Shown here: in pieces, positions 20,559 to 58,218 of the stretch
Position numbering within the stretch: the first letter of the stretch is position 1
How the letters are laid out: each line of letters opens with the position of its first letter
From: a virus
Strand: one strand, 5' to 3'
IMG/VR virus record: IMGVR_UViG_3300017917_001430
Span: 1-58,460 of that record
DNA length: 58,460 nucleotides
Program-made: the position numbers and the translations under genes
The notes under the pieces: generated by a model
Told to the model about the DNA's origin: nothing
Seen by the model: the letters and a program-made list of their open reading frames with translations, nothing else
Databases searched by the model: none

Positions 20559-21774
20559 TACCGAATCTAAACTAATCTCCGCAGTTCTCAAAGATAAACA
20601 ATTGCACGTATTGCTACAGGCTAATGTAGAAAATATAATGCGTACACATAATGATGTATGGCAATTTATTCGTAGGTATGCAGAAATCAATGGATCAGTT
20701 CCACCAGATTCTTTAATAGTTGAAAAGTTTAGAGACTTTATTCCAGAGCAAGATGTTGGCTCTACAAAACACCATTTAGAAGAATTGCAAGTTGAGTATT
20801 TGAATGAAAGCGTCAAAGATATTCTTAGGTCTGCAGCATCTGAGGTTCAAGCTGGCAACGGAACTGCTGCGCTTAATGATTTAATAACAAAAACTTCAGA
20901 ATTAAAAAAGAACACATCAGTTATTCGTGATATTGATGCAACAGATATTAATTCTGCTATTGCATATTTTGAAAATGTTCGTAAAGAACAAGAATTAGGA
21001 AAGATTGGAATTAAAACTGGATTACCAGGATTTGATAATTATCTTCCTTCAGGAATTATGCCAGGACAACTTGGCGTATTTTTAGCATATCCAGGTATTG
21101 GTAAATCTTGGCTTGCTCTTTATTTTGCAGTGCAGGCATGGAAGCAAGGAAAAACTCCATTAATCATAAGCCTTGAAATGTCAGAAGTAGAAGTTCGTAA
21201 TCGTGTATATGCCATTATGGGAGAAGGTTTATGGTCACATCGTAAACTTAGTAATGGACAAGTAGAAACAGACATGCTTAAAAAATGGCATGAAGATAGA
21301 ATTAAAGGCAAGCCACCTTTTCATATCATCTCTAATGATAACGGTGGGGAAATAACTCCTTCTGTAATTCGTGGAAAAATAGATCAGTATAAACCAGACT
21401 TTGTTATTGTTGATTATTTACAACTTATGAGTCCAAACCAAAAATCTGATAATGAGACGGTACGAATGAAGAACCTATCTCGTGAGCTTAAGCTAATGTC
21501 TATTAGTGAAGAAGTTCCTATTATTGCTATATCTTCTGCTACACCTGATGATGTAACTAATCTAAATACTGTGCCAACTTTAGGTCAAACAGCATGGTCA
21601 CGACAAATCGCATATGATGCAGACTGGGTTTTAGCACTTGGTCGTGCAGCAAATAGTGATATTATTGAATGTGCTTTTAGAAAAAATCGTAATGGTTTTA
21701 TGGGTGATTTTTTAATTCAGGTAGACTTTGATAAAGGTTATTATAGATATAAAGATTTTGAGGAAAATAAATGA
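20551..21774 (+). CDS. DnaB-family replicative helicase
   Basis: 407 residues. RecA-type ATPase: Walker A GIGKS at 182-186, Walker B FVIVDYLQLM at 284-293 with Asp288, and a late arginine-bearing motif (about 340-375). An N-terminal helical part (1-120) replaces the DnaB N-domain. Unwinds DNA at the fork and would work with the primase encoded two genes on. Family assignment is secure; shorter than bacterial DnaB. Confidence 0.9.
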   Translation: MINTESKLISAVLKDKQLHVLLQANVENIMRTHNDVWQFIRRYAEINGSVPPDSLIVEKFRDFIPEQDVGSTKHHLEELQVEYLNESVKDILRSAASEVQAGNGTAALNDLITKTSELKKNTSVIRDIDATDINSAIAYFENVRKEQELGKIGIKTGLPGFDNYLPSGIMPGQLGVFLAYPGIGKSWLALYFAVQAWKQGKTPLIISLEMSEVEVRNRVYAIMGEGLWSHRKLSNGQVETDMLKKWHEDRIKGKPPFHIISNDNGGEITPSVIRGKIDQYKPDFVIVDYLQLMSPNQKSDNETVRMKNLSRELKLMSISEEVPIIAISSATPDDVTNLNTVPTLGQTAWSRQIAYDADWVLALGRAANSDIIECAFRKNRNGFMGDFLIQVDFDKGYYRYKDFEENK

Positions 21775-22493
21775 GTATTAAAAAAATAATTTTTCAACAA
21801 GCAACAAATTATGTTGAAGGTTTATTAAAAATGCCTAATCCATCAATATCAAAAGTACCCGATTGGTATAAAGAACAAAAAATGTTTTCTAATGGAGAGG
21901 CTACTCTTTTAAAAGCAATGAAAGGAAACTGGAAAGGAACATATAAAGGATGCACTCCATTTACAGATGCAATAACTTCTGGATATATTATTGAATTACC
22001 AGCTGATGTAATTGTTACAAATAAAGGAGATAGCAGCAGATATAAACCTTTTATTGAGTGGGGCGTACAATTTGATGTTTTAGATTTTCAAGGTCCAGAA
22101 ACATTAGGTAATTTTCCAGTACCAGTTGGCTACAGTAATGAAATGTTTAGATGGAAAGTTAATTGGCAAATTAAAACACCGCCTGGATATAGTTCATGGA
22201 TTTGTCATCCAACAAATAGATATGACCTACCATTTATAACTTTAACTGGATTTGTTGACACAGATAAACATCCAGCCCCACTTGTATTGCCATTTTTTAT
22301 TCAAAATGGATTTGAAGGAATTATTAAAGAAGGAACCCCAATCGCTCAGATATTACCTATGAAAAGAGATTCATGGGAATCGTATGAAGAAAAATACTCA
22401 GAACAATCTGCTATTAACTTTATAAATAGTGTAAAATTAAATTACATAAGAACTTATAAAAATAAATACTGGACAAAGAAAAAATATGGATAA
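21771..22493 (+). CDS. Divergent member of the paralogous family at 40458 and 41981
   Basis: 240 residues, ATGA overlap with the helicase. From about residue 130 it aligns by eye with the proteins at 40458 and 41981: KTPPG, a Pro-Asn turn, LTGFV, a hydrophobic strand set, then GTP and a Pro-x-x-Arg tail (compare KGYPMMGILPIPRY). The N-terminus (PDWYKEQKMF) is of a type seen in T4-like cyanophage proteins of unknown role. No catalytic motif. Insertion between helicase and primase suggests a replication-time function, unproven. Confidence 0.5.
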   Translation: MSIKKIIFQQATNYVEGLLKMPNPSISKVPDWYKEQKMFSNGEATLLKAMKGNWKGTYKGCTPFTDAITSGYIIELPADVIVTNKGDSSRYKPFIEWGVQFDVLDFQGPETLGNFPVPVGYSNEMFRWKVNWQIKTPPGYSSWICHPTNRYDLPFITLTGFVDTDKHPAPLVLPFFIQNGFEGIIKEGTPIAQILPMKRDSWESYEEKYSEQSAINFINSVKLNYIRTYKNKYWTKKKYG

Positions 22494-39819: not shown

Positions 39820-40395
39820 ATGGCAGACCAGGGTACAGCAGAAAAATTTATTGAAATAGCATTAGCAGAAGTAGGAACTATAGAAGGTCCTAAAGACAAC
39901 GAGACAAAGTATGGAGCGTACACCAAGGCTAATTTCCAACCTTGGTGTGGAAGTTTTGTAATGTGGTGTGCAAACGAAGCAGGTGTCAAAGTTCCAAATA
40001 CAGTTTATACTCCAGGAGGTGCTGCAGCATTTAAGAAGGCTGGCAACTGGATTGATGGAGACATTGCTGATCCTGAGCCAGGAGATGTTGCTTATTTTGA
40101 TTTCCCCTCAGATGGCGTTGATCGTATTTCTCATGTCGGAATTGTTATTAAAGATAATGAAGATGGTACGGTTTGGTGCGTTGAGGGCAACACTTCTGGT
40201 GATGCAAAAGGAAGCCAAAGAAATGGTGGAGAAGTCTGCAAAAAGCTTCGTGCATATAAGAAAAATAAAAAGAATGTAATGGTTTCTATTGTTGGTTTTG
40301 GTCGTCCTAAATTTGGTGGAGCATCTGCTACGCCTGCTAAAAAATCACAAAATAAATCAAAAACTTGCCCAACTTGTGGACAATTAATAAAATAA
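39820..40395 (+). CDS. Endolysin, CHAP domain
   Basis: 191 residues. CHAP amidase/peptidase: Cys43 (PWCGSFV), His105 (ISHVGIV) and Glu122/Asn124 (VEGN). Lys/Ser linker, then a terminal CPTCGQLI zinc-ribbon-like end, possibly wall binding. No signal peptide, so it needs a holin. Cleaves peptidoglycan cross-links at lysis. Confidence 0.85.
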   Translation: MADQGTAEKFIEIALAEVGTIEGPKDNETKYGAYTKANFQPWCGSFVMWCANEAGVKVPNTVYTPGGAAAFKKAGNWIDGDIADPEPGDVAYFDFPSDGVDRISHVGIVIKDNEDGTVWCVEGNTSGDAKGSQRNGGEVCKKLRAYKKNKKNVMVSIVGFGRPKFGGASATPAKKSQNKSKTCPTCGQLIK

Positions 40396-40401
40396 ACATA
40401 G

Positions 40402-40429
40402 TTGACTAAAAAAATACATTTGGTATACT
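40402..40429 (+). promoter_or_regulatory. Near-consensus promoter
   Basis: TTGACT (40402-40407), 16-base spacer, TATACT (40424-40429) with TGG extension. Drives the cassette 40458-42763; leader of about 22 bases containing AGGGG. Confidence 0.8.
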
Positions 40430-40457
40430 TTATATAGTATAGAATCAGGGGTAAGTT

Positions 40458-41222
40458 TTGCTAACAGTTCCAGATAAAACAATTGCTTTTATTCCATTAA
40501 TTCCTAGTCAGGGCGTTGAGCCTTTTGACATGAACATATCAACATTTTTAAAACCACTAAATGAAGATCATAAAAGAGATTGGTTTACTCCAAATTTTTA
40601 TAGATGTTTGCCATTATCAATAGGAAATATGCAAGGTTTTGTTTTTAGTTCTCCATTTACTATAGAAGTTTTTTGGAATGGTGGAGATAGCGTAGAAGAT
40701 CTTTCTATATATTTTGATGATGACTCTGATCTTGAAATTAAAAATATGAATCATGTATATTTTACTTCAGAATTTGGTCATGGAATATTGACAGCACATT
40801 TTCCAGTAATGTTAAAAACTCCTCCAGGAATAAATTTAATGACAATTGCTCCACCAAATTATCCACTACCAGGCATTAGTCCAATGACTGGAGTTGTTGA
40901 ATGTGATAATTTAAGATTTACATTTACATTAAATTTTAAAATAGATTTACCAAATAGCAAAATTACAATCAAAAAGGGATATCCTATGATGGGTATTTTA
41001 CCTATACCAAGATACTTCTGTGATTCTTTTAAATTAGTAAATGCATATGATGTTTTTGATGAAAAAGATGTTGAAGAAGAAAGAAAAATTGCAAATGATC
41101 AAAATATTTTTAGAAATATACAAATTAAAAATAATTATGGATCTAAAGGAGATTATTTTAAAGGCATAGATTTTTATAAAAACAAGTTTAAAGATCATCA
41201 ACTTCCGAAGGGTAAAAAATGA
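40458..41222 (+). CDS. Conserved phage protein, DUF6065-like (copy A)
   Basis: 254 residues from TTG, 6 bases after AGGGG. Shares nearly every landmark with the protein at 41981: a PDKTIAF start, HKRDWFTPNFYRCLPLSI, NMQGFVFS, KTPPGINLMTIAPPN, PIPRYFCDS and a KFKDHQLPK tail. I recall this as a DUF6065-like family of unknown role. No nucleophile-type motif. ATGA overlap with the threonine-protease gene ties it to that enzyme. Third, distant relative lies at 21771. Confidence 0.6.
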   Translation: MLTVPDKTIAFIPLIPSQGVEPFDMNISTFLKPLNEDHKRDWFTPNFYRCLPLSIGNMQGFVFSSPFTIEVFWNGGDSVEDLSIYFDDDSDLEIKNMNHVYFTSEFGHGILTAHFPVMLKTPPGINLMTIAPPNYPLPGISPMTGVVECDNLRFTFTLNFKIDLPNSKITIKKGYPMMGILPIPRYFCDSFKLVNAYDVFDEKDVEEERKIANDQNIFRNIQIKNNYGSKGDYFKGIDFYKNKFKDHQLPKGKK

Positions 41223-41752
41223 CTTGTATAGCAGTAGTACGTGATTTACAAAATAATAAAATTTGGATGGCTGGAGATCGTGGCATATCAGATGAAAATA
41301 CTATTAACGTTGGATCAAGTCCTAAAATTTGGAAAAAAGATGGATATTTATTTGGCTATGCTGGTTCTATGGATGGAGATAGAATAAAACATTTATTTGT
41401 GCCACCAATGTATGAGGGTCGTGGAAGCGTAGATAAGTTTATGTATAGTAAATTTCTTAAAGCACTTAGAAAATTTTATGAAGAATGGTGGGTAGATACA
41501 ACAAGTTCTTCTGATTTTGGAATGATTATTTGTACTCGTGGAAAAATCTATGAGCATAGTGCAGTAGATATGTCATTAACTCAATATGAACAAGACTACT
41601 TAGTAATGGGGTCTGGTGGAGACTTGGCTATGGGCTCTTTATATTCAACACAGAAACAAAAAGATGGTCGTAAAAGGGCAGTACAGGCAGTAAGTGCAGC
41701 AATAACACATTCTCCATCTTGCAAGGGTCCGATTGACATTCTGAGTATTTAG
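41219..41752 (+). CDS. HslV/proteasome-beta-like threonine protease (Ntn hydrolase)
   Basis: 177 residues, the same size as HslV. After Met removal the first residue is Thr2 (MTCIAVVRD), the Ntn nucleophile position. Asp20 (AGDRGIS) and Lys36 (SSPKIW) keep the 16-residue spacing of HslV D17 and K33; GSGGD at about 132 matches the HslV/proteasome serine segment. No propeptide. Would self-assemble into a ring chamber. Partner unfoldase is not in the window; actinobacterial hosts usually have a 20S proteasome rather than HslUV. Proteolytic activity is inferred. Confidence 0.75.
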   Translation: MTCIAVVRDLQNNKIWMAGDRGISDENTINVGSSPKIWKKDGYLFGYAGSMDGDRIKHLFVPPMYEGRGSVDKFMYSKFLKALRKFYEEWWVDTTSSSDFGMIICTRGKIYEHSAVDMSLTQYEQDYLVMGSGGDLAMGSLYSTQKQKDGRKRAVQAVSAAITHSPSCKGPIDILSI

Positions 41753-41761
41753 GATTATACT
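41733..41761 (+). promoter_or_regulatory. Consensus promoter, leaderless
   Basis: TTGACA (41733-41738), exactly 17 bases, TATACT (41756-41761), then 6 bases and the ATG at 41768. The -35 lies in the end of the protease gene. Strongest promoter in the window by eye. Confidence 0.85.
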
Positions 41762-41767
41762 TAATAT

Positions 41768-41971
41768 ATGAATCATTTAAATGAAGAAGATTTATCATCA
41801 GATGAACAAGAATTTGGTGTTTGGTTACAAAACGGTATTGAAAGAGGTTGGGTAACTGATCCATATTGCGTAACTCATGATGGTGGTATGGAGTATATGA
41901 GTGAAGAAGAGCTAGAAGAATGGGACCAAGGTGGAGATCCATGTCAGCATGTAGTAAGAATAATGATATAA
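41768..41971 (+). CDS. Small acidic protein, leaderless
   Basis: 67 residues, acidic, two cysteines plus a CVTHDG motif. The pattern (EFGVWLQNGIERGWV) is that of a small actinophage family of unknown function, recognised from memory. No ribosome site; the promoter is 6 bases upstream of the ATG. Confidence 0.6.
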   Translation: MNHLNEEDLSSDEQEFGVWLQNGIERGWVTDPYCVTHDGGMEYMSEEELEEWDQGGDPCQHVVRIMI

Positions 41972-41980
41972 ATTAATAAT

Positions 41981-42763
41981 ATGATAATTAATCAAGACGA
42001 TGGGCTAGAGGTTCCAGAAAAAACTATTGCATTTTTTCCAGTGACTCCAAGTAACAATTTAAAACCTTTTGAGTTAAATGATATTGGATTATTTTTAAGA
42101 CCATTAAATTTAGATCATAAAAGAGAATGGTTTAAACCAAACTTTTATAAATGTTTACCTTTATCAATTGCAAATATGCAAGGATTTGTTTTTTCTTTAC
42201 CATATAAATTTAGTGTTTTATGGAACGGAGGAAGCTCTAAGGAAGATATTTATATAGAATATTATGAAGATTTTGAAAAATATAAAGGTACAAATTTTAT
42301 TACTCCAATATCTGTATTTGGTGATGGAATTTTTACTATACAATACCCACTAACCTTAAAAACTCCTCCTGGTGTTAACTTAATGACAATTGCCCCTCCA
42401 AATTTTCCTCTTGCTGGATTAAGTCCAATGTCTGGAGTTGTAGAGTCTGATAACCTTAGATTCTCTTTTTCTTTAAATATAAAAATAGATTTATCAAATG
42501 TAAAAATAATAATAGAAGAAAATACTCCGTTAATCGGAATGTTACCAATACCAAGATATTTTTGTGACTCTTTTGAATTAAAAAATGCCTATGATATTTT
42601 TGATAAAAAAATTGTAGAGGAAGAAATAAAAGTAGTAGATGAGCATTCGTCAAAAAGAGATTCTGATAATGAAAAAGGATTTAAACCAGATAAGACTTAT
42701 TTTACTGGACATGATGTTAGAGGAAATAAATTTAAAGATCATCAGCTTCCAAAGAAAAAATAA
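41981..42763 (+). CDS. Conserved phage protein, DUF6065-like (copy B)
   Basis: 260 residues, clear paralog of the 40458 protein across its full length, including the C-terminal KFKDHQLPK tail. No ribosome site; TGATATAAA lies 8 bases upstream of the ATG, so it may also be leaderless. Two copies flanking a protease gene suggest recent duplication or two subunits of one complex; the copies have already diverged. Confidence 0.6.
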   Translation: MIINQDDGLEVPEKTIAFFPVTPSNNLKPFELNDIGLFLRPLNLDHKREWFKPNFYKCLPLSIANMQGFVFSLPYKFSVLWNGGSSKEDIYIEYYEDFEKYKGTNFITPISVFGDGIFTIQYPLTLKTPPGVNLMTIAPPNFPLAGLSPMSGVVESDNLRFSFSLNIKIDLSNVKIIIEENTPLIGMLPIPRYFCDSFELKNAYDIFDKKIVEEEIKVVDEHSSKRDSDNEKGFKPDKTYFTGHDVRGNKFKDHQLPKKK

Positions 42764-42765
42764 AC

Positions 42766-42794
42766 TTGACTTTTTTTACAGCTTTCTGTATACT
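42766..42794 (+). promoter_or_regulatory. Near-consensus promoter
   Basis: TTGACT (42766-42771), 17 bases, TATACT (42789-42794). Drives the secreted protein after an AT-rich leader of about 60 bases ending in AGGAG. Confidence 0.85.
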
Positions 42795-42860: not shown

Positions 42861-43532
42861 ATGAAGAAAATTTCTTTTTTAATGTCTAGCATTATTATGG
42901 CATTAAGCATTACTATCTTGTCTTTTAACACAGCAAAAGCAGAAGAGTGCAGCGTATCTAACCCATGTGATAACTGGGCATCAGTAGATGCAAACGGTGT
43001 TGTTACAAATGTTATTGTTTGTCAAATGAGCGTTTGCGGTCAAGACGGATCTTGGGGTGGAATAGATCCAAACAATGGTAATAGGTTAGTTCCTCAAACT
43101 TCTGGTAATCGTTCTACAGGAGATGTGCAGGGAACTTCTGGATATATTGGAGATCCATCAAGAGGTTCTGTTGTTATTGAAAATAATGGAGTTTTTACAA
43201 TTATTGAAGGAGAAACTAAAACTGTAGTTCAAGATGGTGTAGAATTAACAACTATAGTTCCTGAAACAAAAAGAAGTTTTACTTTTAATTCCTCAATAGG
43301 TAAATTATACAATGAAATTGAAATGCAGGCTGTTTCTCCAGAACAAAATACAACTGCAACTATCAGTGCAAAAAGACAAACATCAACTAACTTAATTTTA
43401 GAAACTAAAACATTTCTTGAAAGAAAAACTGTTGATGAGGTCATAGATGAAGTTAGTTCGGATGGATTAAGCTTAATTTTATCTAAAGTTGAAATATTTC
43501 TAAATATGCTTGGTGCTTGGGTAAAACCTTAG
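42861..43532 (+). CDS. Secreted cysteine-containing protein
   Basis: 223 residues. Signal peptide with KK start, hydrophobic 4-22 and AKA cleavage at 27. Mature part begins with a four-cysteine region (C30, C36, C54, C59) around WASVDANGVVTNVIVC, a motif common in phage and actinobacterial surface proteins, then beta strands and a C-terminal helix (VEIFLNMLGAWV). Own strong promoter. Exported to the host envelope; function unknown. Confidence 0.6.
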   Translation: MKKISFLMSSIIMALSITILSFNTAKAEECSVSNPCDNWASVDANGVVTNVIVCQMSVCGQDGSWGGIDPNNGNRLVPQTSGNRSTGDVQGTSGYIGDPSRGSVVIENNGVFTIIEGETKTVVQDGVELTTIVPETKRSFTFNSSIGKLYNEIEMQAVSPEQNTTATISAKRQTSTNLILETKTFLERKTVDEVIDEVSSDGLSLILSKVEIFLNMLGAWVKP

Positions 43533-43603: not shown

Positions 43604-44023
43604 ATGGTAAGTTCATTTGCACTGGATCTATTTAAAGATCCATTTTTTATTGGTTTCAACCGTGAGTTGGACCGTCTTTCAAATATACATCGTGAGGCAA
43701 TTCGTCAATCATATCCGCCATATGATTTGGTAAAGATTGATGAAGATACTTACAAACTATCTTTAGCTCTTGCTGGTTTTAGTAAGAATGAAATAGAAGT
43801 TTCTGTGGATAATGGAAGTTTAATTGTTAAGGGTGAGAAAGCCGAAGAAACTTCTAATGAAGTTTTACATAAGGGTATCGCAGCAAGAAAATTCACACGC
43901 ACCTTTGCTCTTGGAGAGTATATGGAGGTTGATCGTGCTGAAATGGCAGACGGTATTCTTGATGTCTTTGTGGAGAGAAACATTCCAGAAGAAAAGAAAC
44001 CAAAAACAATCAAAATCAAATAA
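43604..44023 (+). CDS. Small heat-shock protein (Hsp20)
   Basis: 139 residues. Alpha-crystallin domain about 30-130, with GILDV near its end (the GVL motif) and a C-terminal IKI (I-x-I) tail for oligomer contacts. IbpA-like: GIAARKFTRTFALGE. Holdase chaperone that prevents aggregation; in T4-like cyanophages Hsp20 is common. Own promoter with inverted repeat, AGGAG site. Confidence 0.9.
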   Translation: MVSSFALDLFKDPFFIGFNRELDRLSNIHREAIRQSYPPYDLVKIDEDTYKLSLALAGFSKNEIEVSVDNGSLIVKGEKAEETSNEVLHKGIAARKFTRTFALGEYMEVDRAEMADGILDVFVERNIPEEKKPKTIKIK

Positions 44024-48252: not shown

Positions 48253-48462
48253 ATGATAATTAAAAGTTTAAACACTATGGAAAAAATTGTTGCTAAAAAT
48301 AAAAATTTATTGTGGCGTGGCTGGGACATAATTGATCTCAAAGAGTCTGATATTGCAAAAACCTCTCCAATTGGAATTAGGGTTAATAATAAGTGGTACA
48401 TACATAAAATATATAGACCTAATCGTAATGGCTGGGATATACCGAATAAGTATAGGGAATAA
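48253..48462 (+). CDS. Hypothetical small protein
   Basis: 69 residues preceded by GAGGAG. Trp-rich (WRGWDIID, WYIHKIYRPNRNGWDI) and basic. Resembles small phage proteins of unknown role. One base separates its stop from the WhiB start. Confidence 0.45.
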   Translation: MIIKSLNTMEKIVAKNKNLLWRGWDIIDLKESDIAKTSPIGIRVNNKWYIHKIYRPNRNGWDIPNKYRE

Positions 48463-48463
48463 A

Positions 48464-48745
48464 TTGAAACAGCATCTTTGGAAAGATCAAGCCTTATGTT
48501 TAGGAACTGATACTAATATTTTTTTTGATACATATGAAGATAACGCACAAAGTAGATATTTTGTAGATTCTTTATGCCGTTCATGTCCAGTAAGAAAAAC
48601 ATGCTTTGCTAATGGTGTATCTGGTAAAGAGTGGGGTGTTTGGGGCGGGGTATACTTAGAAGGTGGAGAAATATCAAGAGAATTTAATAAACATAAAAAT
48701 AAACAAGAGTGGTCATATACTTGGCAATCCTTAACTATGGAATAA
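48464..48745 (+). CDS. WhiB-family Fe-S transcription factor
   Basis: 93 residues from TTG, 5 bases after AGGGA; longer versions would overlap the previous gene. Cluster ligands C12, C38, C41, C47 and the GVWGG turn (58-62) are the WhiB signature, with the CPVRKTC core. WhiB-like proteins are restricted to actinobacteria and their phages, the best single host clue here. Would bind host sigma factor or phage promoters. Confidence 0.9.
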   Translation: MKQHLWKDQALCLGTDTNIFFDTYEDNAQSRYFVDSLCRSCPVRKTCFANGVSGKEWGVWGGVYLEGGEISREFNKHKNKQEWSYTWQSLTME

Positions 48746-50769: not shown

Positions 50770-51462
50770 ATGGATTTTGTTTATATATGTAAAGAAGGAA
50801 CAAACGAAGAGTTAAAATACTCAATAAGGTCTGTCGTACAAAGTTTTCCTAGTTCAAATATATGGGTTGTAGGTGGTAAACCAGACTGGTATATAGGAAA
50901 TTATATTGAAATTCACCAAGTTCATACTAAATACAAAAATGCCTATGAAAATCTTAAAGCTATTTGTTCATCAGAAAACATATCAGATCCATTTGTATTA
51001 ATGAATGATGACTTTTACATTATTAAAAACATAGATAATATTGAAATGTATCATGGCGGTTATCTATTAAATAAAATAAATTTATATCAAAAAATAAATG
51101 GCAACTCTAACTATACTAGAAAGCTTGCAGCCACGTATAAAAAAATCATATCTCTTGGAATTGAAAATCCACTAGACTATGAATTACATGTACCAATGGT
51201 TATGGAAAAAAATAAACTACAAGAAGTTTTAAAACATAAAGATCAGTTTTTATGGAGATCAATGTACGGTAATTTATATAATGTTGCTGGATCAGAAATG
51301 AAAGATGTAAAAGTTTATACAAAAGGACCTTTGGTTTTTAAGTCCTACAGTTTAGATATAGATCAACATAAATATTTATCAAGTGCAGATAGCTCATTTC
51401 AGATTATTTGGGATAAAATATTAAAGGCACAGTTTAAAGAAAAAACTAGATTTGAGAAATAA
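50770..51462 (+). CDS. Stealth-like glycosyl/phospho-glycosyl transferase
   Basis: 230 residues. FVYICKEGTNEELKYSIRS start and FVLMNDDFYII with the NDDF motif match Stealth-type capsular-polysaccharide phosphotransferase regions (CR1-CR2-like). Only + strand gene in the island, overlapping the minus-strand gene tail to tail by 17 bases. Modifies a surface or virion glycan; substrate unknown. Confidence 0.55.
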   Translation: MDFVYICKEGTNEELKYSIRSVVQSFPSSNIWVVGGKPDWYIGNYIEIHQVHTKYKNAYENLKAICSSENISDPFVLMNDDFYIIKNIDNIEMYHGGYLLNKINLYQKINGNSNYTRKLAATYKKIISLGIENPLDYELHVPMVMEKNKLQEVLKHKDQFLWRSMYGNLYNVAGSEMKDVKVYTKGPLVFKSYSLDIDQHKYLSSADSSFQIIWDKILKAQFKEKTRFEK

Positions 51463-52483
51463 TATCTAAGTATTTTTGTTTTAATACTTCTGGAGAAAAA
51501 TTGTTATATCCAATTTCAAAAGCTTTTTCTTTTTGTATAGTTTTATCTTTAATTGCCATATAGGTATCAACTATATCTGCTAAAACTTTTGGATGAGCTT
51601 CAAACAGATCCATTCTTACTTTAGTTCTTATTGTTCCAATAGAATCTGCCCTTGCTAGCCAATCTAAAGGAAGTATAAAATTATTTGGAGAAATATTAGG
51701 CATAAAAACAGGAAGACCACTAAGTAGTGCTTCATTCATTGGTAGGCAAAGTCCAGCATATCTTCTAGGTAAAACCATAGCATCAAAGCCATCATACATT
51801 TCTTCTCTATTTTCTGGATTGCCAATTTCTATTTTTAGTCTAGAGTCTCTTACATTTGTTTCTATTTCACTTTGACTTCTAATTACTAACTCATATTCAG
51901 CCTTAGAATAGCGCAACATATCAATTACTGTATTTGTGCCATTTCTATCTTTAGATGCTTTTTTTCCACCAATATGCAATATTCTATTATGTGATTTTGA
52001 CATATTATTTTCTTTTACATTCTTAAATAATTCTGGATCCGTTGGAGGTGGAAGATGTATTAGTTTAGTTTTATTTCCAAACATACTGTCAATCACATCA
52101 ATATTCCATTTACTTGGAGCCAAAAGCACGGTAGGTAAGGGAAGAGTAGGATTAGCTAAATGACCAAACAATTCATAGTTATACTGAAGAATTGTTTTTA
52201 CGTTATATTTATTAGCATATCTAATAAAGTTTTGATCATAAAAAGTTTCACAGCTTAAAACAATATCAACTTCTTTTAAAAACATTTTCATTTGCATAAG
52301 CGTTGGAAAACCATTTGTAGTTAAAACATCATATCCTTGATACCATTCTGGATGTTGTTTATTTTTATTAAACGGGGTAGAATCAATTAAAAGAATCTTG
52401 TTAGGATTAAGCATATTGACTAGCTCTCTAGTTTGATTACCTAGGCCAGTATTATCAGATCTAGCTATTATTCCTAGTCTCAT
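51446..52483 (-). CDS. Glycosyltransferase, GT-B (GT4-like)
   Basis: 345 residues. MRLGIIARSDNTGLGNQTREL is a GT4 N-terminal glycine loop, and the C-terminal half has a pattern with GNPENREEMYDGFDAMVLP and EALLSGLPVFMPN, the sugar-nucleotide-binding side of GT-B folds. Last gene of the minus-strand operon, ATGA overlap with the preceding one. Donor sugar cannot be told. Confidence 0.75.
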   Translation of the reverse strand: MRLGIIARSDNTGLGNQTRELVNMLNPNKILLIDSTPFNKNKQHPEWYQGYDVLTTNGFPTLMQMKMFLKEVDIVLSCETFYDQNFIRYANKYNVKTILQYNYELFGHLANPTLPLPTVLLAPSKWNIDVIDSMFGNKTKLIHLPPPTDPELFKNVKENNMSKSHNRILHIGGKKASKDRNGTNTVIDMLRYSKAEYELVIRSQSEIETNVRDSRLKIEIGNPENREEMYDGFDAMVLPRRYAGLCLPMNEALLSGLPVFMPNISPNNFILPLDWLARADSIGTIRTKVRMDLFEAHPKVLADIVDTYMAIKDKTIQKEKAFEIGYNNFSPEVLKQKYLDIISQI

Positions 52484-53241
52484 TCTTTATACCCCCATGT
52501 ATCATCATCAGTTGTAAATTTGCGTGTTCCTTGTCTGCCATCTAAATGATAAGATCTTTTAATATGTCCATCTGGATGATAAATCCATAACTTATGTTTA
52601 TCCCAACCACCCTGATCAAAAGAGTTGTTTGGTAAAACATCGTCCTGAACTTTTCCATGAAATGTATCTTCTATAAAAAATCTTTCAATACAATTTTGCA
52701 TAACTACATCTTTATAATAACTTTTTCTAGAAAGATGTGGTCTTTGACTCCACTGAGCAGTTTTCATAAAATCTCCATCCAAACCAAACATTAAGTGGTT
52801 GTGTTCTTTAGGAATTGATGCTTCAAAATGAAATCTAATTGTATTAGCTTTGTCCTGTCTAAACATTTCTAAACATTGTTCCCAGTCTATATACTCATCT
52901 GGTGTTAATGGTGCATCACCTTCAACATATAAAAGCAATGGTGTTTTGATTTCGTGCATTGTTTTATGCATCATTGTTGTTTGATGGCTATGCTCATCAA
53001 AAACTATTGGAACTATATTTTTATATTTGTGTAAACATTTCCACAGTATTCTATTTTTGTATTCATCGTAATCATCTTTACGATTTTTTTGCTCATCTCT
53101 TAGCCCATCAATTTGCATAATAATTTCATTGTTTGGTAGATGTTTTCTTAAATCTTCTATAGTTTGCTCTATCATTTCTGTGCTTGGATGAGCAGGTATA
53201 ACAGAGGTTGCTAAAATAATCGTTATGCTATCTTTATTCAT
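52480..53241 (-). CDS. Glycosyltransferase, GT-A-like
   Basis: 253 residues. N-terminal TIILATSVIPAHPS strand and LYVEGDAPL (DxD-like) suggest a GT-A fold. Late HPDGHIKRSYHLDG. Overlaps its neighbours by 4 to 8 bases. Assigned by pattern only. Confidence 0.55.
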   Translation of the reverse strand: MNKDSITIILATSVIPAHPSTEMIEQTIEDLRKHLPNNEIIMQIDGLRDEQKNRKDDYDEYKNRILWKCLHKYKNIVPIVFDEHSHQTTMMHKTMHEIKTPLLLYVEGDAPLTPDEYIDWEQCLEMFRQDKANTIRFHFEASIPKEHNHLMFGLDGDFMKTAQWSQRPHLSRKSYYKDVVMQNCIERFFIEDTFHGKVQDDVLPNNSFDQGGWDKHKLWIYHPDGHIKRSYHLDGRQGTRKFTTDDDTWGYKE

Positions 53242-54088
53242 TTACCTGCCTCATAATCTCAATACCTATATCACGTTTTGCTTTAATCCACCAAGCTACT
53301 ACTCTATGCATATTTGCTGGATAGTCTTCTAAAAGTTTTGGTACAAGATCTTTAATTTCATTCCAGTTAGTAATAAATTTTACTGGTATATCATATCCAA
53401 ACACATATTTATAAAATTCATCATGTCTGCCTTTTGAATTTATTAAATCTCCAATAGGGAGACATAACATTTCTATTGCTTCAAAAAATCTAAAGGTATC
53501 AACTGTAGCGGCTCCAGAAGGCGCAGGAGCTATCTTAGCGGTTGACATGGCAGCATAGTAGTCTTTAGGATCTCCGCCTTGTGCAAAGCCAGCTGTAGGG
53601 TTATAAAGGCTATTTGGCATATCTGGCATGACTTCTGCTAACTGTTGTCGTCTTTGATGGGTAATTTGACCACTAAAATATAAATCATATTTTTTATTTG
53701 GATATTTTGGTATCATTTTTTTTAAATGTTGAGGAACTCCAATGGGCAACTTATTGCAATGCTTATGTTGTGGATACGGATACTGAACCCATATTTCTGC
53801 ATTACTATGATTTATTTTTTTTATATTAAATTTACCTTCTTCATCACCGTTGATAAATAAAACTAACCTTGATATATTTTTTAATTCCTCATTAATTTGT
53901 TCTTCATACCCAATATTTTGTGGTCCAGGAATTACAACAAAAGCTCTTTCTGACTTTGGTAAATTAGTTGTTTTAATTTCATCAATTTTGTATTTATTAA
54001 AAATTTCTTTTAATAATCCATAATCCCATTTATCAGCAGCGCAATCTTCTTCTTTAACTGAATACAAATATGCTTTTATATTATTCAT
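53234..54088 (-). CDS. Exostosin-like glycosyltransferase
   Basis: 284 residues from the ATG at 54088, which overlaps the methyltransferase stop by 8 bases; an upstream ATG would overlap by 59. Contains YFSGQITHQRR and APAPSGAATVDTFRFFEAIEM with FEA, typical of exostosin GT47-type GT-B ends. Transfers a sugar; substrate unknown. Confidence 0.6.
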   Translation of the reverse strand: MNNIKAYLYSVKEEDCAADKWDYGLLKEIFNKYKIDEIKTTNLPKSERAFVVIPGPQNIGYEEQINEELKNISRLVLFINGDEEGKFNIKKINHSNAEIWVQYPYPQHKHCNKLPIGVPQHLKKMIPKYPNKKYDLYFSGQITHQRRQQLAEVMPDMPNSLYNPTAGFAQGGDPKDYYAAMSTAKIAPAPSGAATVDTFRFFEAIEMLCLPIGDLINSKGRHDEFYKYVFGYDIPVKFITNWNEIKDLVPKLLEDYPANMHRVVAWWIKAKRDIGIEIMRQVNE

Positions 54089-54788
54089 AATATAAATGAA
54101 CCTCATGCTGGTAGTCAAGTAAAGACTCTTTATATCCAATCTCAGTCAACCAATATCTAAGATCCCATAAATATTTATTCCAATACATAATCATAAATTC
54201 TGGATGACCAGATAGCCAAATTTTTGGTTTATACTCTTTTAATACTTTTTCGGCGCCAGTCAAAACAGCCCATTCACTTCCTTCAACATCAATAGTTATT
54301 GCTGTTGGTGGTTTTATTTTATGATCATAAACACAAGAGTCAATTGTAATTTGTCCATATTCGTCTCCTTCTGTATGTAATTCTTTAAATCCATGGGCTG
54401 CTTCTATTTGTTGATTTGCTTCTGGTGGAAATTCATTATGATAAATTCTTGTTAAGCTATTATTCTTATTTGATGCAAATCCAGGAATACATGCTAATGG
54501 CTTACTTAAATTATTGGCTTCCCAAATTAGTGGATAGTGTGACCAAACTTTTGGATTCGGTTCAAAAATGACAGTTTCTGCTTTCCATATTTGACAAAGA
54601 GCAACCATTTCACCTTCCTCTCCACCAACATAATAAATTACATCTCCATGTTTAAGATTTTTATGCATAGAATGTAATCTATTTTTTTCCCATCCTTTTT
54701 CTGAATACCATTCTGGTCTTTTTGCACGGTGTTCAGGAAGTACTATTTCAAATTCATTATTAATAATACTTTTAATCATTTGTGTCAT
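54081..54788 (-). CDS. FkbM-family methyltransferase
   Basis: 235 residues. SAM-binding DVIYYVGGEEGEM and IDVEGSEWAVLTGAEKVL with the FkbM VEG motif. Methylates a sugar hydroxyl in polysaccharide or glycolipid. Sits between SDR epimerase and exostosin-like GT in the operon. Confidence 0.8.
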   Translation of the reverse strand: MTQMIKSIINNEFEIVLPEHRAKRPEWYSEKGWEKNRLHSMHKNLKHGDVIYYVGGEEGEMVALCQIWKAETVIFEPNPKVWSHYPLIWEANNLSKPLACIPGFASNKNNSLTRIYHNEFPPEANQQIEAAHGFKELHTEGDEYGQITIDSCVYDHKIKPPTAITIDVEGSEWAVLTGAEKVLKEYKPKIWLSGHPEFMIMYWNKYLWDLRYWLTEIGYKESLLDYQHEVHLYYE

Positions 54789-55715
54789 TTATTTACCCAT
54801 ATAAAAACTAACTATTTCAGCAATACTTTCCTGCATAGTTCGTTTTGGTTTCCATCCAGTTTTTTCTTGCAATAGAGATGAGTTCATAAATTGTTTTTTA
54901 ATTTCAAATCCATCACTTTCAATAATTTCGTGGCTAACTGGATTTCCAATTGCATTTTGTACTAAATTAAATACTTCCATTGTTGAATATCTTTCTCCAG
55001 ATGAAATATTAAATGATGGAATATTATTAACAGTTTCTCCATATTGGAGTATATTTGCATAAGCAGAAACAACATCTTCAACATTTATATATTCACGAAT
55101 ATCTCTTCCGCCATTTCTAATGATAAAAACTGTTTGATCTTTATATGATTTTACAATTCCAGGAATTAATCTTTGAGTATTGTTGTCTCCAGATCCATAA
55201 ATATTACAAGCACGGGTTGTGATAATTGGCATTTTGTAAGTGTTTCTATATGAGTTACACATTATATCTGTAATAGATTTAGATGCATCATATGGATATA
55301 TACCATTTAAAACATGATCTTCAAAATATTCATCATTAGTAAGTTCGCCATATGCCTTATCGCTAGAAGCTACAATTGTTGATTTACAATTTTTATACTC
55401 TCTTAAAGATTCTAATACATTTAATGTTCCAATAGAATTTGTAAAAAAAGTATTATATGGATATTTTATTGAGTCGTATGCCTGAGTTTGTGCTGCTAAA
55501 TGAATAAAATAATCTGGTCTTGATTTTTCTATAAAAAAATCAACATCTGCTTTATTATTTATGCTTCCATAAACTTTATTAACATTTGGAGATAATTTTG
55601 TTTTGCTATGCTCATCTTTTAATAAAACAAAAACATTCCATCCCAAAGATAAATAGTAGTTTGATAAATGCGATCCAAGTAAACCAGTTGCTCCAGTTAT
55701 TGCTATATTATTCAT
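54789..55715 (-). CDS. NAD-dependent sugar epimerase/dehydratase (SDR)
   Basis: 308 residues from the ATG at 55715, overlapping the upstream stop as ATGA. Gly-rich GATGLLGSH (8-16), Ser118 and Y142-x3-K146 active site, NIYGSGDNN substrate loop. Looks like sugar-nucleotide 4,6-dehydratase/epimerase enzymes. Would make the activated sugar used by neighbouring transferases. Confidence 0.85.
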   Translation of the reverse strand: MNNIAITGATGLLGSHLSNYYLSLGWNVFVLLKDEHSKTKLSPNVNKVYGSINNKADVDFFIEKSRPDYFIHLAAQTQAYDSIKYPYNTFFTNSIGTLNVLESLREYKNCKSTIVASSDKAYGELTNDEYFEDHVLNGIYPYDASKSITDIMCNSYRNTYKMPIITTRACNIYGSGDNNTQRLIPGIVKSYKDQTVFIIRNGGRDIREYINVEDVVSAYANILQYGETVNNIPSFNISSGERYSTMEVFNLVQNAIGNPVSHEIIESDGFEIKKQFMNSSLLQEKTGWKPKRTMQESIAEIVSFYMGK

Positions 55716-56668
55716 TTTATCTCCAATTTGCTTAAAATCTCTTGCCATCTATGAATATATGTATGATTATTTTTTGTTCTTTCATGACCACGTTTTCTAA
55801 TTGCTTCTCGCTCATCTTCATGAACAAGATAATAATCTATTTTATTTTTTAAGTCATTCAAGTTACCGTGTTCATACCAAACTATTTCATCATTATTAAA
55901 ATATTGATCAAGGCCTTTTATATTTGGATATATAGTAAAACCACCACGACCAGTACTTTCAAATAATCTATCGCTAGTATAATATGGATAGTTAAAATTT
56001 AAATTTAAAGTATCACCAATTGCAATCTTGCTTTTAGCATAAATACGATTGAGAGCTTCACCTCTAATAGTTCCTGTATCGCCATCACCACCAACATGAC
56101 AAAACCTATTTTTATATGTATCTCTTAAAAAGTCTATCAACTGCGGTCTAAATTGATATTCATGATGATATCTTTTACTTCCCACGAAAATTACATCGTA
56201 GTAGTAATGTTTTTCATCATAATCTTTATGTATGTAACACTCTTTATCGTAAACTCCTGGGGGTATAAAATGACCTTTAACATTAGTATTATCGTTAAAC
56301 CAGTCAGCCATAAGCTTGTCTACTGTAAAGAAATGACCAATAGTTCTATAAAAGTTGTCTTGTTCAAGATCTTTTTGTCTTTCAAGACCAAACCATAAAT
56401 CAAGATGGTATGTAATGGTTTGAACATTGGCTTTTTTTAACTCTATTAAAACTTGATCCATTGGTACCTCGCCTGGAGTTTTCCATCCGTGAGTGTGTAC
56501 CCAAATAAATAAATCAGAAGATAATGCACGTCTTAATATCTTCTCACTTGTTGCTTTTTTTTCCTGCAATTTATCAACGGTGTGTCCAAGAGACTCTAAA
56601 GATTTAGCATGGTGATTTTCACTGCTATAAGGTACTTCAAAATTTCCTAAGAATGTTATTTTTAGCAA
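55712..56668 (-). CDS. Glycosyltransferase (CgeB-like GT-B)
   Basis: 318 residues from TTG, with GGTGGAGG 3 bases upstream. N-terminal FLGNFEVPYSSENHHAKSL and C-terminal GLDQYFNNDEIVWY then an E-rich helix are typical of CgeB/DUF3880-type glycosyltransferases. First gene of the longest operon in the island, just after an extended -10 promoter. Confidence 0.7.
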   Translation of the reverse strand: MLKITFLGNFEVPYSSENHHAKSLESLGHTVDKLQEKKATSEKILRRALSSDLFIWVHTHGWKTPGEVPMDQVLIELKKANVQTITYHLDLWFGLERQKDLEQDNFYRTIGHFFTVDKLMADWFNDNTNVKGHFIPPGVYDKECYIHKDYDEKHYYYDVIFVGSKRYHHEYQFRPQLIDFLRDTYKNRFCHVGGDGDTGTIRGEALNRIYAKSKIAIGDTLNLNFNYPYYTSDRLFESTGRGGFTIYPNIKGLDQYFNNDEIVWYEHGNLNDLKNKIDYYLVHEDEREAIRKRGHERTKNNHTYIHRWQEILSKLEIK

Positions 56669-56688
56669 TATCCTCCACCTTTTTAATC

Positions 56689-56697
56689 ATTATATCA
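56689..56697 (-). promoter_or_regulatory. Extended -10 promoter (minus strand)
   Basis: Reads TGATATAAT on the minus strand, about 20 bases before the TTG start of the CgeB-like gene. It would transcribe the operon down to 51446. Confidence 0.7.
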
Positions 56698-56709
56698 TTT
56701 AAATTATTA

Positions 56710-57387
56710 CTATATGTAAAAAATCCGTGGTTTTATATGTCCAACCCTTAAAAATGGATCAGCAAATATTTTATAACCTTCATCTGTTATTCTTTTACAA
56801 AAAAATGTATCTTCTCCAGTTATGCTATATACATTGTTATTTTCATCTGTTCCACTCGGAATGATGGTCATAAACCATGGATATCCTATTTTTTCTAAAA
56901 CTCCATAAGAACATGACATAAATCCAGTACCACAATTTAATATTTCAAAATCTTCTATATAATTATCTAATTCTTGAGGATTCATTAAAATCAATCCGTC
57001 TTGATTTTCATCAATACTTATTGATATATTTTGCAAGTTAGACTCCATATATATTCCAGTTAAAACATCCTTATCTGTTTTTATTAATTTTTCAAAATCT
57101 GAAACTGTCCAACACATATCACTATCAATAAAAATTACTTTTTTATATTTTAACTTTCCCATAAACGGAACATTTGAATTTCTTTCATTTAGATTATCGG
57201 GTGAGTTACCTACTAATAGATTTCTTACATGTGGTAACAATGGTGAATAAGAAATAGCAAACTTATATTTGTAATTATTCTCATTTAAATAGTTTATTGT
57301 ATTTGTCCAACAATATAAAAAATTTAAATTAAACTGAATACCTGGAACTAAAATAATAAAATCAACTTCTTCTGTATTATTTTTCAA
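56710..57387 (-). CDS. Glycosyltransferase, GT-A-like
   Basis: 225 residues. A GT-A-like layout: FIILVPGIQF start, VIFIDSDMCW DxD motif, GEDTFFCKRI and a final histidine (GHIKPRIF). Transfers from a nucleotide sugar with a metal. Overlaps the small gene upstream by 11 bases. Confidence 0.65.
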   Translation of the reverse strand: MKNNTEEVDFIILVPGIQFNLNFLYCWTNTINYLNENNYKYKFAISYSPLLPHVRNLLVGNSPDNLNERNSNVPFMGKLKYKKVIFIDSDMCWTVSDFEKLIKTDKDVLTGIYMESNLQNISISIDENQDGLILMNPQELDNYIEDFEILNCGTGFMSCSYGVLEKIGYPWFMTIIPSGTDENNNVYSITGEDTFFCKRITDEGYKIFADPFLRVGHIKPRIFYI

Positions 57388-57595
57388 TTTCGTTTAATCC
57401 TCTTGCAATTGCAGCAGAAACGTCAAAAGCTTTTTGAGTTCTACGAGATTTATTTAGTCCCTTTGCTTTCCAAAGTTCAGAAGTTGCTTGAATATCAACG
57501 GCAATTTGCTCTCTTATTTCTTTTACAGTAAAAACAATAAATTCCCAAACTTGTTCCTTTTGTTTATCTGTTAATTCTTTTGTCCAGTCTGACAC
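57377..57595 (-). CDS. Small helical protein
   Basis: 72 residues, starts GTG within one base of the deacetylase stop. Fully helical, charged. No motif; lies between PIG-L and glycosyltransferase. Confidence 0.45.
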   Translation of the reverse strand: MSDWTKELTDKQKEQVWEFIVFTVKEIREQIAVDIQATSELWKAKGLNKSRRTQKAFDVSAAIARGLNEIEK

Positions 57596-58218
57596 TATCC
57601 CACCATCTTTACAATATTAAATTCTTCTGCGTAACTTATACCATGCAATTTTGCAGTCCATGGCTGATTAAAAATTTTTAGTGAATCTGTAAACATATAT
57701 GGCATTTTTAATTGAGTAATATGTTTACGAACTGCATCCATTTTTATATCATACTCGTTGTCTATGTCAACTATATAATTAGACTTAAAACCATTATAGA
57801 TGCTTGGAGATCTATATTCAATTATACTAATTGGTAGTCTTCTTAAAGCAGACATGGTTATGTCATGAAGCAATCTATGCTCTTGATGTGTTTCATCTTT
57901 AGCAGAATGAATTAAAACTAAATCAATATTATTTTCTAAAACAATGTTTCTAATTTGATCTGACAATTCTTCATAATCTTCTACCAAAATTTTATTTGTA
58001 TGTCTAAATTTAAGAATACAATTTGGAATTAAAGAAAAAGAATTTATACTTTCTTGCATTCTTTCTTTATCTTGAGAACCATCTGACCTAGAATCTGGAG
58101 ATGCAATAAAAACATGAATATTGGATCCTTTTTTTTGTTGTTTTAAAAGAAAACCAAAACAAGAAAATTCAATATCGTCTGGATGTGCACCAATAGCAAG
58201 GATAGACTTAAATTGCAT
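57595..58218 (-). CDS. PIG-L/LmbE-like deacetylase
   Basis: 207 residues. AHPDD at 11-15 and the HQEH pair later are the zinc-binding motifs of this family. Removes N-acetyl groups from GlcNAc-type sugars. Fits the glycan island. Could also touch the mycothiol pathway enzymes, but the neighbourhood favours polysaccharide. Confidence 0.8.
   Translation of the reverse strand: MQFKSILAIGAHPDDIEFSCFGFLLKQQKKGSNIHVFIASPDSRSDGSQDKERMQESINSFSLIPNCILKFRHTNKILVEDYEELSDQIRNIVLENNIDLVLIHSAKDETHQEHRLLHDITMSALRRLPISIIEYRSPSIYNGFKSNYIVDIDNEYDIKMDAVRKHITQLKMPYMFTDSLKIFNQPWTAKLHGISYAEEFNIVKMVG

Follow-up and report, generated by a model that had tools for sequence, protein, structure and literature searches.

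A proteasome-fold threonine protease and a small acidic protein are encoded as a conserved, lysis-proximal gene pair in actinophages

The 58,460-base virus record IMGVR_UViG_3300017917_001430 from IMG/VR (hereafter the window) encodes a threonine protease with the fold of HslV and the proteasome beta subunits, and its gene is followed by one for a highly acidic protein that is its neighbour in most related phages (Table 1). We propose, with somewhat less than even confidence, that the protease self-assembles into an AAA+-independent ring chamber with the acidic protein as its regulator or adaptor, which would make the two genes an actinophage unit. An initial annotation of this stretch had described a promoter-driven cassette with two DUF6065-like paralogs around the protease gene; all the elements that it listed were recovered where it had placed them, and the protease gene does lie in a small conserved unit, but with the acidic gene as the constant neighbour. 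A WhiB-like gene is regarded as an actinophage marker (PMC10202952), and because WhiB genes are present in the window and, above cut-off, in 31 of 35 records carrying the protease, we consider the carriers and the window to be actinophages.

Table 1. Positions of the features discussed in the text, in coordinates of the window.
Feature	Position	Strand	Evidence or remark
CHAP-domain endolysin	39820-40395	+	PF05257 E 3e-11; PHROG endolysin E 2e-25
Promoter TTGACT-N16-TATACT, extended -10	40402-40429	+	10/12 matches
DUF6065 copy A, TTG start	40458-41222	+	PF19541 E 4e-36
ATGA overlap, copy A / protease	41219-41222
HslV/BPH-like proteasome-fold threonine protease	41219-41752	+	phrog_1040 E 4e-21
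Embedded leaderless promoter TTGACA-N17-TATACT	41733-41761	+	11/12 matches; -35 box inside the last codons of the protease gene
Acidic 67-aa protein, uncharacterised	41768-41971	+	kept as the neighbour of the protease
DUF6065 copy B	41981-42763	+	PF19541 E 1e-31; variable slot behind the acidic gene
Third DUF6065 copy, other subfamily	21771-22493	+	PF19541 28.9 bits, above cut-off
WhiB gene	48332-48745		PF02467 E 2.5e-12

The protease (177 aa) matches phrog_1040, annotated as 'peptidase HslV family', and has no Pfam match at E 1. Its AlphaFold2 model, for which 20 diverse sequences served as input, reached a pLDDT of 93 and aligned with HslV, BPH and 20S beta chains at Z scores of 17-20, the best solved-fold matches being HslV (Z 20.2, 2.6 Å over 165 residues) and BPH (Z 20.0), which points to the proteasome beta/HslV fold. 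A BPH was also the top match in a profile search (E 9e-7), with HslV at about 1e-4. Among the 20 diverse sequences T2 and K36 are invariant, and the position of D20 is occupied by Asp or, in a minority, by Glu. Once the Met is removed, T2 would be the catalytic Thr1, and the residues fit the Thr1/Asp17/Lys33 pattern. Model, phrog_1040 match and catalytic pattern together uphold the HslV-like threonine protease of the initial annotation as a true proteasome fold. The score against the NCBIfam HslV model TIGR03692 is far below the cut-off (14.4 bits versus 157.75). The HslU-type domain PF07724 (AAA_2) was found in none of 14 carrier records, which may be fragments, compared to 14 of 14 control genomes, and a search of the 14 carriers for an AAA domain gave no match above cut-off and one below it. 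A scan for distant relatives that used the protease alignment A2 largely recovered the top loci already in hand, and no relatives were found in GTDB genome contigs by a short-pattern scan, which misses divergent forms. Relatives are also present in cultured phages, among them an Actinomycetia phage and T5-like phages; there the gene is located in early or nucleotide-metabolism regions and the acidic gene is absent. The protease is of a known kind; its setting appears, to our knowledge, to be new.

To describe this setting, 80 viral loci with the protease were fetched and their genes clustered (81 proteases including that of the window). The left-hand order is nearly constant, starting with a gene for a small membrane-type protein, which is followed by those for the CHAP endolysin (78 loci) and the protease. 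The acidic gene was found behind the protease gene in 66 loci by clustering, and of the protease records with downstream sequence 27 out of 34 contain it, always directly downstream and as a single copy. The reciprocal scan, starting from the acidic protein, found the protease gene immediately upstream in 74 of the 75 loci with enough upstream sequence, and protease identity in the acidic-protein loci reaches down to 43%. The protease and acidic genes are thus paired, although in one locus (L179) they lie about 0.9 kb apart. The acidic protein has a median net charge of about -14, and C34, H37 and C59 are invariant in its alignment; no family was matched in Pfam, NCBIfam or PHROG. A short-pattern scan of GTDB genome contigs, which misses divergent forms, found no relatives of this protein, and a plasmid search with its homologue from Mycobacterium phage Aminay gave no matches.

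To the right of the acidic gene the contents are swapped between relatives. Genes found here encode a carbamoyltransferase or one of several proteases (subtilase-like and exported, trypsin-like, or a putative metalloprotease), and there are modules that combine DUF6065 with a 2OG-Fe oxygenase and a glycosyltransferase-like gene. Often the slot behind the pair holds an exported protease (L056:5762-6601, L051:1588-2676, L033:5550-7070 and related loci), either subtilase-like, trypsin-like or a putative metalloprotease, the last recognised by eye from an HE..H motif. In the window, a promoter of the form TTGACT-N17-TATACT (42766-42794) is located after copy B, ahead of a gene (42861-43532) whose 223-aa product looks secreted and is of unknown family. 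An Hsp20 small heat-shock gene lies 1.9 kb past the protease gene (43604-44023; phrog_432 E 2e-39), and since the Hsp20 cluster is present in 23 compared loci, this may possibly be a protein-quality-control neighbourhood. The minus strand at 51446-58218 carries a block resembling glycosyltransferase and sugar-modification genes, including a weak Exostosin-type match (53234-54139) and a PIG-L deacetylase (57595-58218).

The promoters of the pair could be recognised from their conservation. The plus strand of the window contains 22 promoter matches of 10/12, versus 16 ± 4 in simulated sequence, and in this AT-rich window a lone match of this quality is not rare. The promoter that had been annotated ahead of copy A is supported by its relatives: a promoter of the TTGACA-N16/17-TATACT type precedes the protease gene in 47 of the 51 distinct sequences compared, whereas among the other genes of these loci 112 of 737 have one. 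In the relatives it is located past the endolysin stop codon, and 23-29 nt separate it from the protease ATG. Of the four exceptions, three are loci with copy A inserted, and there the promoter still follows the endolysin gene but now precedes copy A. The corresponding promoter in the window is probably the ancestral protease promoter, now ahead of copy A. Of note, the leader in L056 retains a stretch like the ancestral protease start, which could be a scar of the insertion.

The second promoter lies within the terminal part of the protease gene. At least 10/12 matches were found in 68 of 74 distinct relatives, compared to the control figure of 112 of 737 genes given above. Its geometry is fixed throughout the 69 cases that were scored, with a spacer of 17 and exactly 6 nt between the end of the -10 box and the acidic ATG. 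In the window, TATACT begins at 41756 and the acidic ATG at 41768, and a TANNNT box at about 12 nt ahead of the start codon is the published signature of leaderless genes in Actinobacteria (PMC3160421). Transcription from the embedded promoter would begin at the acidic ORF itself, giving a leaderless mRNA. With the box at this distance and the promoter conserved, the leaderless acidic gene of the initial annotation is supported; its single promoter-driven cassette is not, because the embedded promoter would start its own transcript, and another promoter follows copy B at 42766. Codon choice was analysed at 61 leaderless junctions of protease genes less than 92% identical. At the -35 box, Asp is encoded by GAC in 59 of 61 cases, while over the rest of these genes GAC makes up 190 of 789 Asp codons (Fisher p 1.6e-31, a value that overstates independence since the sequences share descent), and the preceding codon ends in T in 60 of 61. 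Because codon choice is constrained at the -35 box, it is most likely that selection acts on the DNA of the end of the protease gene, and a coding-embedded leaderless promoter offers a clean example of DNA-level selection at a protein-coding end. In clade 2 (L072-L083) the embedded promoter is absent and the protease and acidic genes overlap instead. In L031, L033, L035 and L047, the position of the embedded promoter precedes another gene, with a signal peptide, and not the acidic gene.

These features can be combined into a tentative mechanism. The first promoter, past the endolysin gene, would start the protease mRNA, and the leaderless promoter, with its -35 box inside the final protease codons, would produce the acidic protein independently. 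The protease would assemble into a ring chamber without a dedicated AAA+ unfoldase, and the chamber would cut unfolded or peptide substrates during infection. The acidic protein, in an independently set amount, may then act as a co-inherited regulator or substrate adaptor. Copy A would have slipped between the protease promoter and the start codon, and would now be coupled to the protease gene by the ATGA overlap, and copy B would fill the variable slot behind the unit. We infer a regulatory role of the acidic protein toward the protease; the more specific idea that it serves an AAA+-free phage proteasome-like chamber as a dedicated activator, inhibitor or substrate adaptor is, in our estimate, unlikely. 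If true, it would be the first partner of a bacterial-type proteasome homolog beyond HslVU and the 20S proteasome, and a partner whose expression is set independently by a leaderless promoter inside the protease gene. For most proteasome homologs other than these two systems no partner is known, and the conserved small neighbour turns regulation of the protease into a direct question of binding and activity.

A serious alternative, almost as probable in our view, is that the protease and acidic genes are synteny neighbours, separately transcribed and sharing no function, with the acidic protein as an independent host-takeover factor. This would agree with the acidic gene having its own promoter, and with the promoter slot serving other genes in L031 and L047. 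Moreover, seven records (G001, G006, G009, G012, G013, G014 and G018) have an intact protease gene and downstream sequence without the acidic gene, and because it is missing in several carriers, the acidic protein is not essential to the protease. In addition, a distant homologue of the acidic protein, gp2 of Mycobacterium phage Aminay (34 bits to the profile), has no protease gene beside it. However, the pair is kept down to the lowest protease identity mentioned above, and in G036 the two genes are adjacent although the endolysin gene sits 1.5 kb downstream of the pair. Clade 2 retains the pair by overlap with the promoter absent, and genes further downstream are swapped between relatives, which also argues against mere synteny. 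On balance we slightly favour a functional unit of the protease and the acidic protein.

Phages commonly employ proteases for head maturation, and the protease could in principle be a prohead protease, but we consider this improbable, since the gene comes after the endolysin gene, apart from terminase-like and tail genes, and since distant phages place it among nucleotide-metabolism or early genes.

The DUF6065 genes have a different history. Copies A and B are members of this family, as had been annotated, and score 125 and 110 bits, compared to 28.9 bits for the third copy (gathering cut-off 26.6). They are 58% identical and fall into one clade together with the copies of L058 and L060 and two more distant ones, whereas the third copy and those in the downstream module stand apart (100/100). 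The description of A and B as flanking paralogs is correct for this site, but flanking is not exclusive, as the third copy is located between DnaB-like helicase and primase genes, 19 kb from the protease gene. The position of copy A, at the promoter-protease junction, is seen in the window and in two other lineages only (L056/L059/L060 and L058), and that of copy B, behind the acidic gene, in the window only. Most simply, copies A and B are an accessory insertion and a duplication. In total, 72 DUF6065-fold genes were detected in 35 records. Within 1 kb of the protease gene they occur in 3 of 30 records, versus 2.0 expected with uniform placement. The suggested co-occurrence within 3 kb was found with a more sensitive profile (15 of 30 records versus 5.4 expected) but was chance-like with the Pfam model alone (3 of 24 versus 2.5), the less sensitive test, which we therefore discounted, and within 5 kb the count was 21 of 30 versus 8.1. 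The copies at 3-5 kb are a separate subfamily, and the excess at this distance is due to the variable downstream module of related phages. In many carriers DUF6065 is 50-64 kb off or none is shown.

The AlphaFold2 model of copy A had a pLDDT of 74.6, and in a Foldseek search its best 50 rows were dUTPases, dCTP deaminases or their complexes, with Z scores against dUTPases of up to 9.2 over 115 residues. In 24 aligned members a GVxDxD-like stretch is kept, whereas by inspection the classical dUTPase motif 2 (RSS) and motif 5 (Gly-rich C-terminus) are absent, and because of this a canonical dUTPase role appears unlikely. Halovirus relatives of the third copy (e.g. L253, HSTV-2) are located near thymidylate synthase and DNA polymerase genes, which hints at a role in nucleotide metabolism. 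Copy A had no tblastn match in INPHARED, and DUF6065 was not found by name in the literature searched; the assignment to the dUTPase superfamily by fold provides a testable lead for this unnamed family. Upstream of DUF6065 tandem pairs we observed a gene cluster, c12 (L017:5763-6425 etc.), with weak profile similarity (hhalign probability 66%); together they may be three dUTPase-fold paralogs in one array, whose products could perhaps form a heterotrimer.

That the DUF6065 paralogs and the protease are one system of chamber plus adaptor, as had been suggested, we regard as highly improbable: the ATGA overlap in the window was confirmed, the gene order is the same in L056, L059, L060 and L058, and at 3-5 kb from the protease gene DUF6065-fold genes are more frequent than expected, but there is no excess within 1 kb, contact is restricted to three lineages, nearby copies elsewhere belong to another subfamily, many carriers have DUF6065 far away or none shown, and nothing in a dUTPase fold points to an unfoldase or an adaptor.

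The proposed unit can be compared with known systems. A survey of group I proteasome homologs (BPH, AAH, PPH and CPH) found neither a telling genomic context nor an AAA+ partner, and described PPH and AAH as phage-borne, with no AAH recorded in an actinobacterial phage (PMC8665760). These homologs share with the window protease the proteasome fold and the Thr1/Asp17/Lys33 triad, some are phage-borne, and they likewise have no co-occurring AAA+ partner, but the window protease is lysis-proximal and has a conserved small neighbour in actinophages. Our comparison covered HslV, BPH, 20S beta chains and the description of PPH. PPH is about 140 aa and has no helix H2, whereas the window protease is 177 aa and its model has both first helices (52-59 and 71-89), and by the criteria of the survey its identity as PPH is ruled out. 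HslV (ClpQ) is the closest solved fold with the same catalytic pattern; the differences are the score far below the NCBIfam cut-off and the carriers without HslU-type AAA_2. The phrog_1040 proteins, including those of T5-like phages, are the same phage family by profile, but are encoded elsewhere near thymidylate synthase or early genes, and in the stretches inspected there neither the 67-aa partner nor DUF6065 was present. With the dUTPase/dCTP deaminase superfamily, DUF6065 shares the predicted fold and the GVxDxD-like stretch, but it is without the Arg-Ser-Ser and Gly-rich C-terminal motifs and has extra N- and C-terminal parts. Finally, like the leaderless genes of Actinobacteria (PMC3160421), the acidic gene has TANNNT exactly 12 nt before its start codon, but its -35 box is embedded in the upstream coding sequence and appears to be held there by codon choice.
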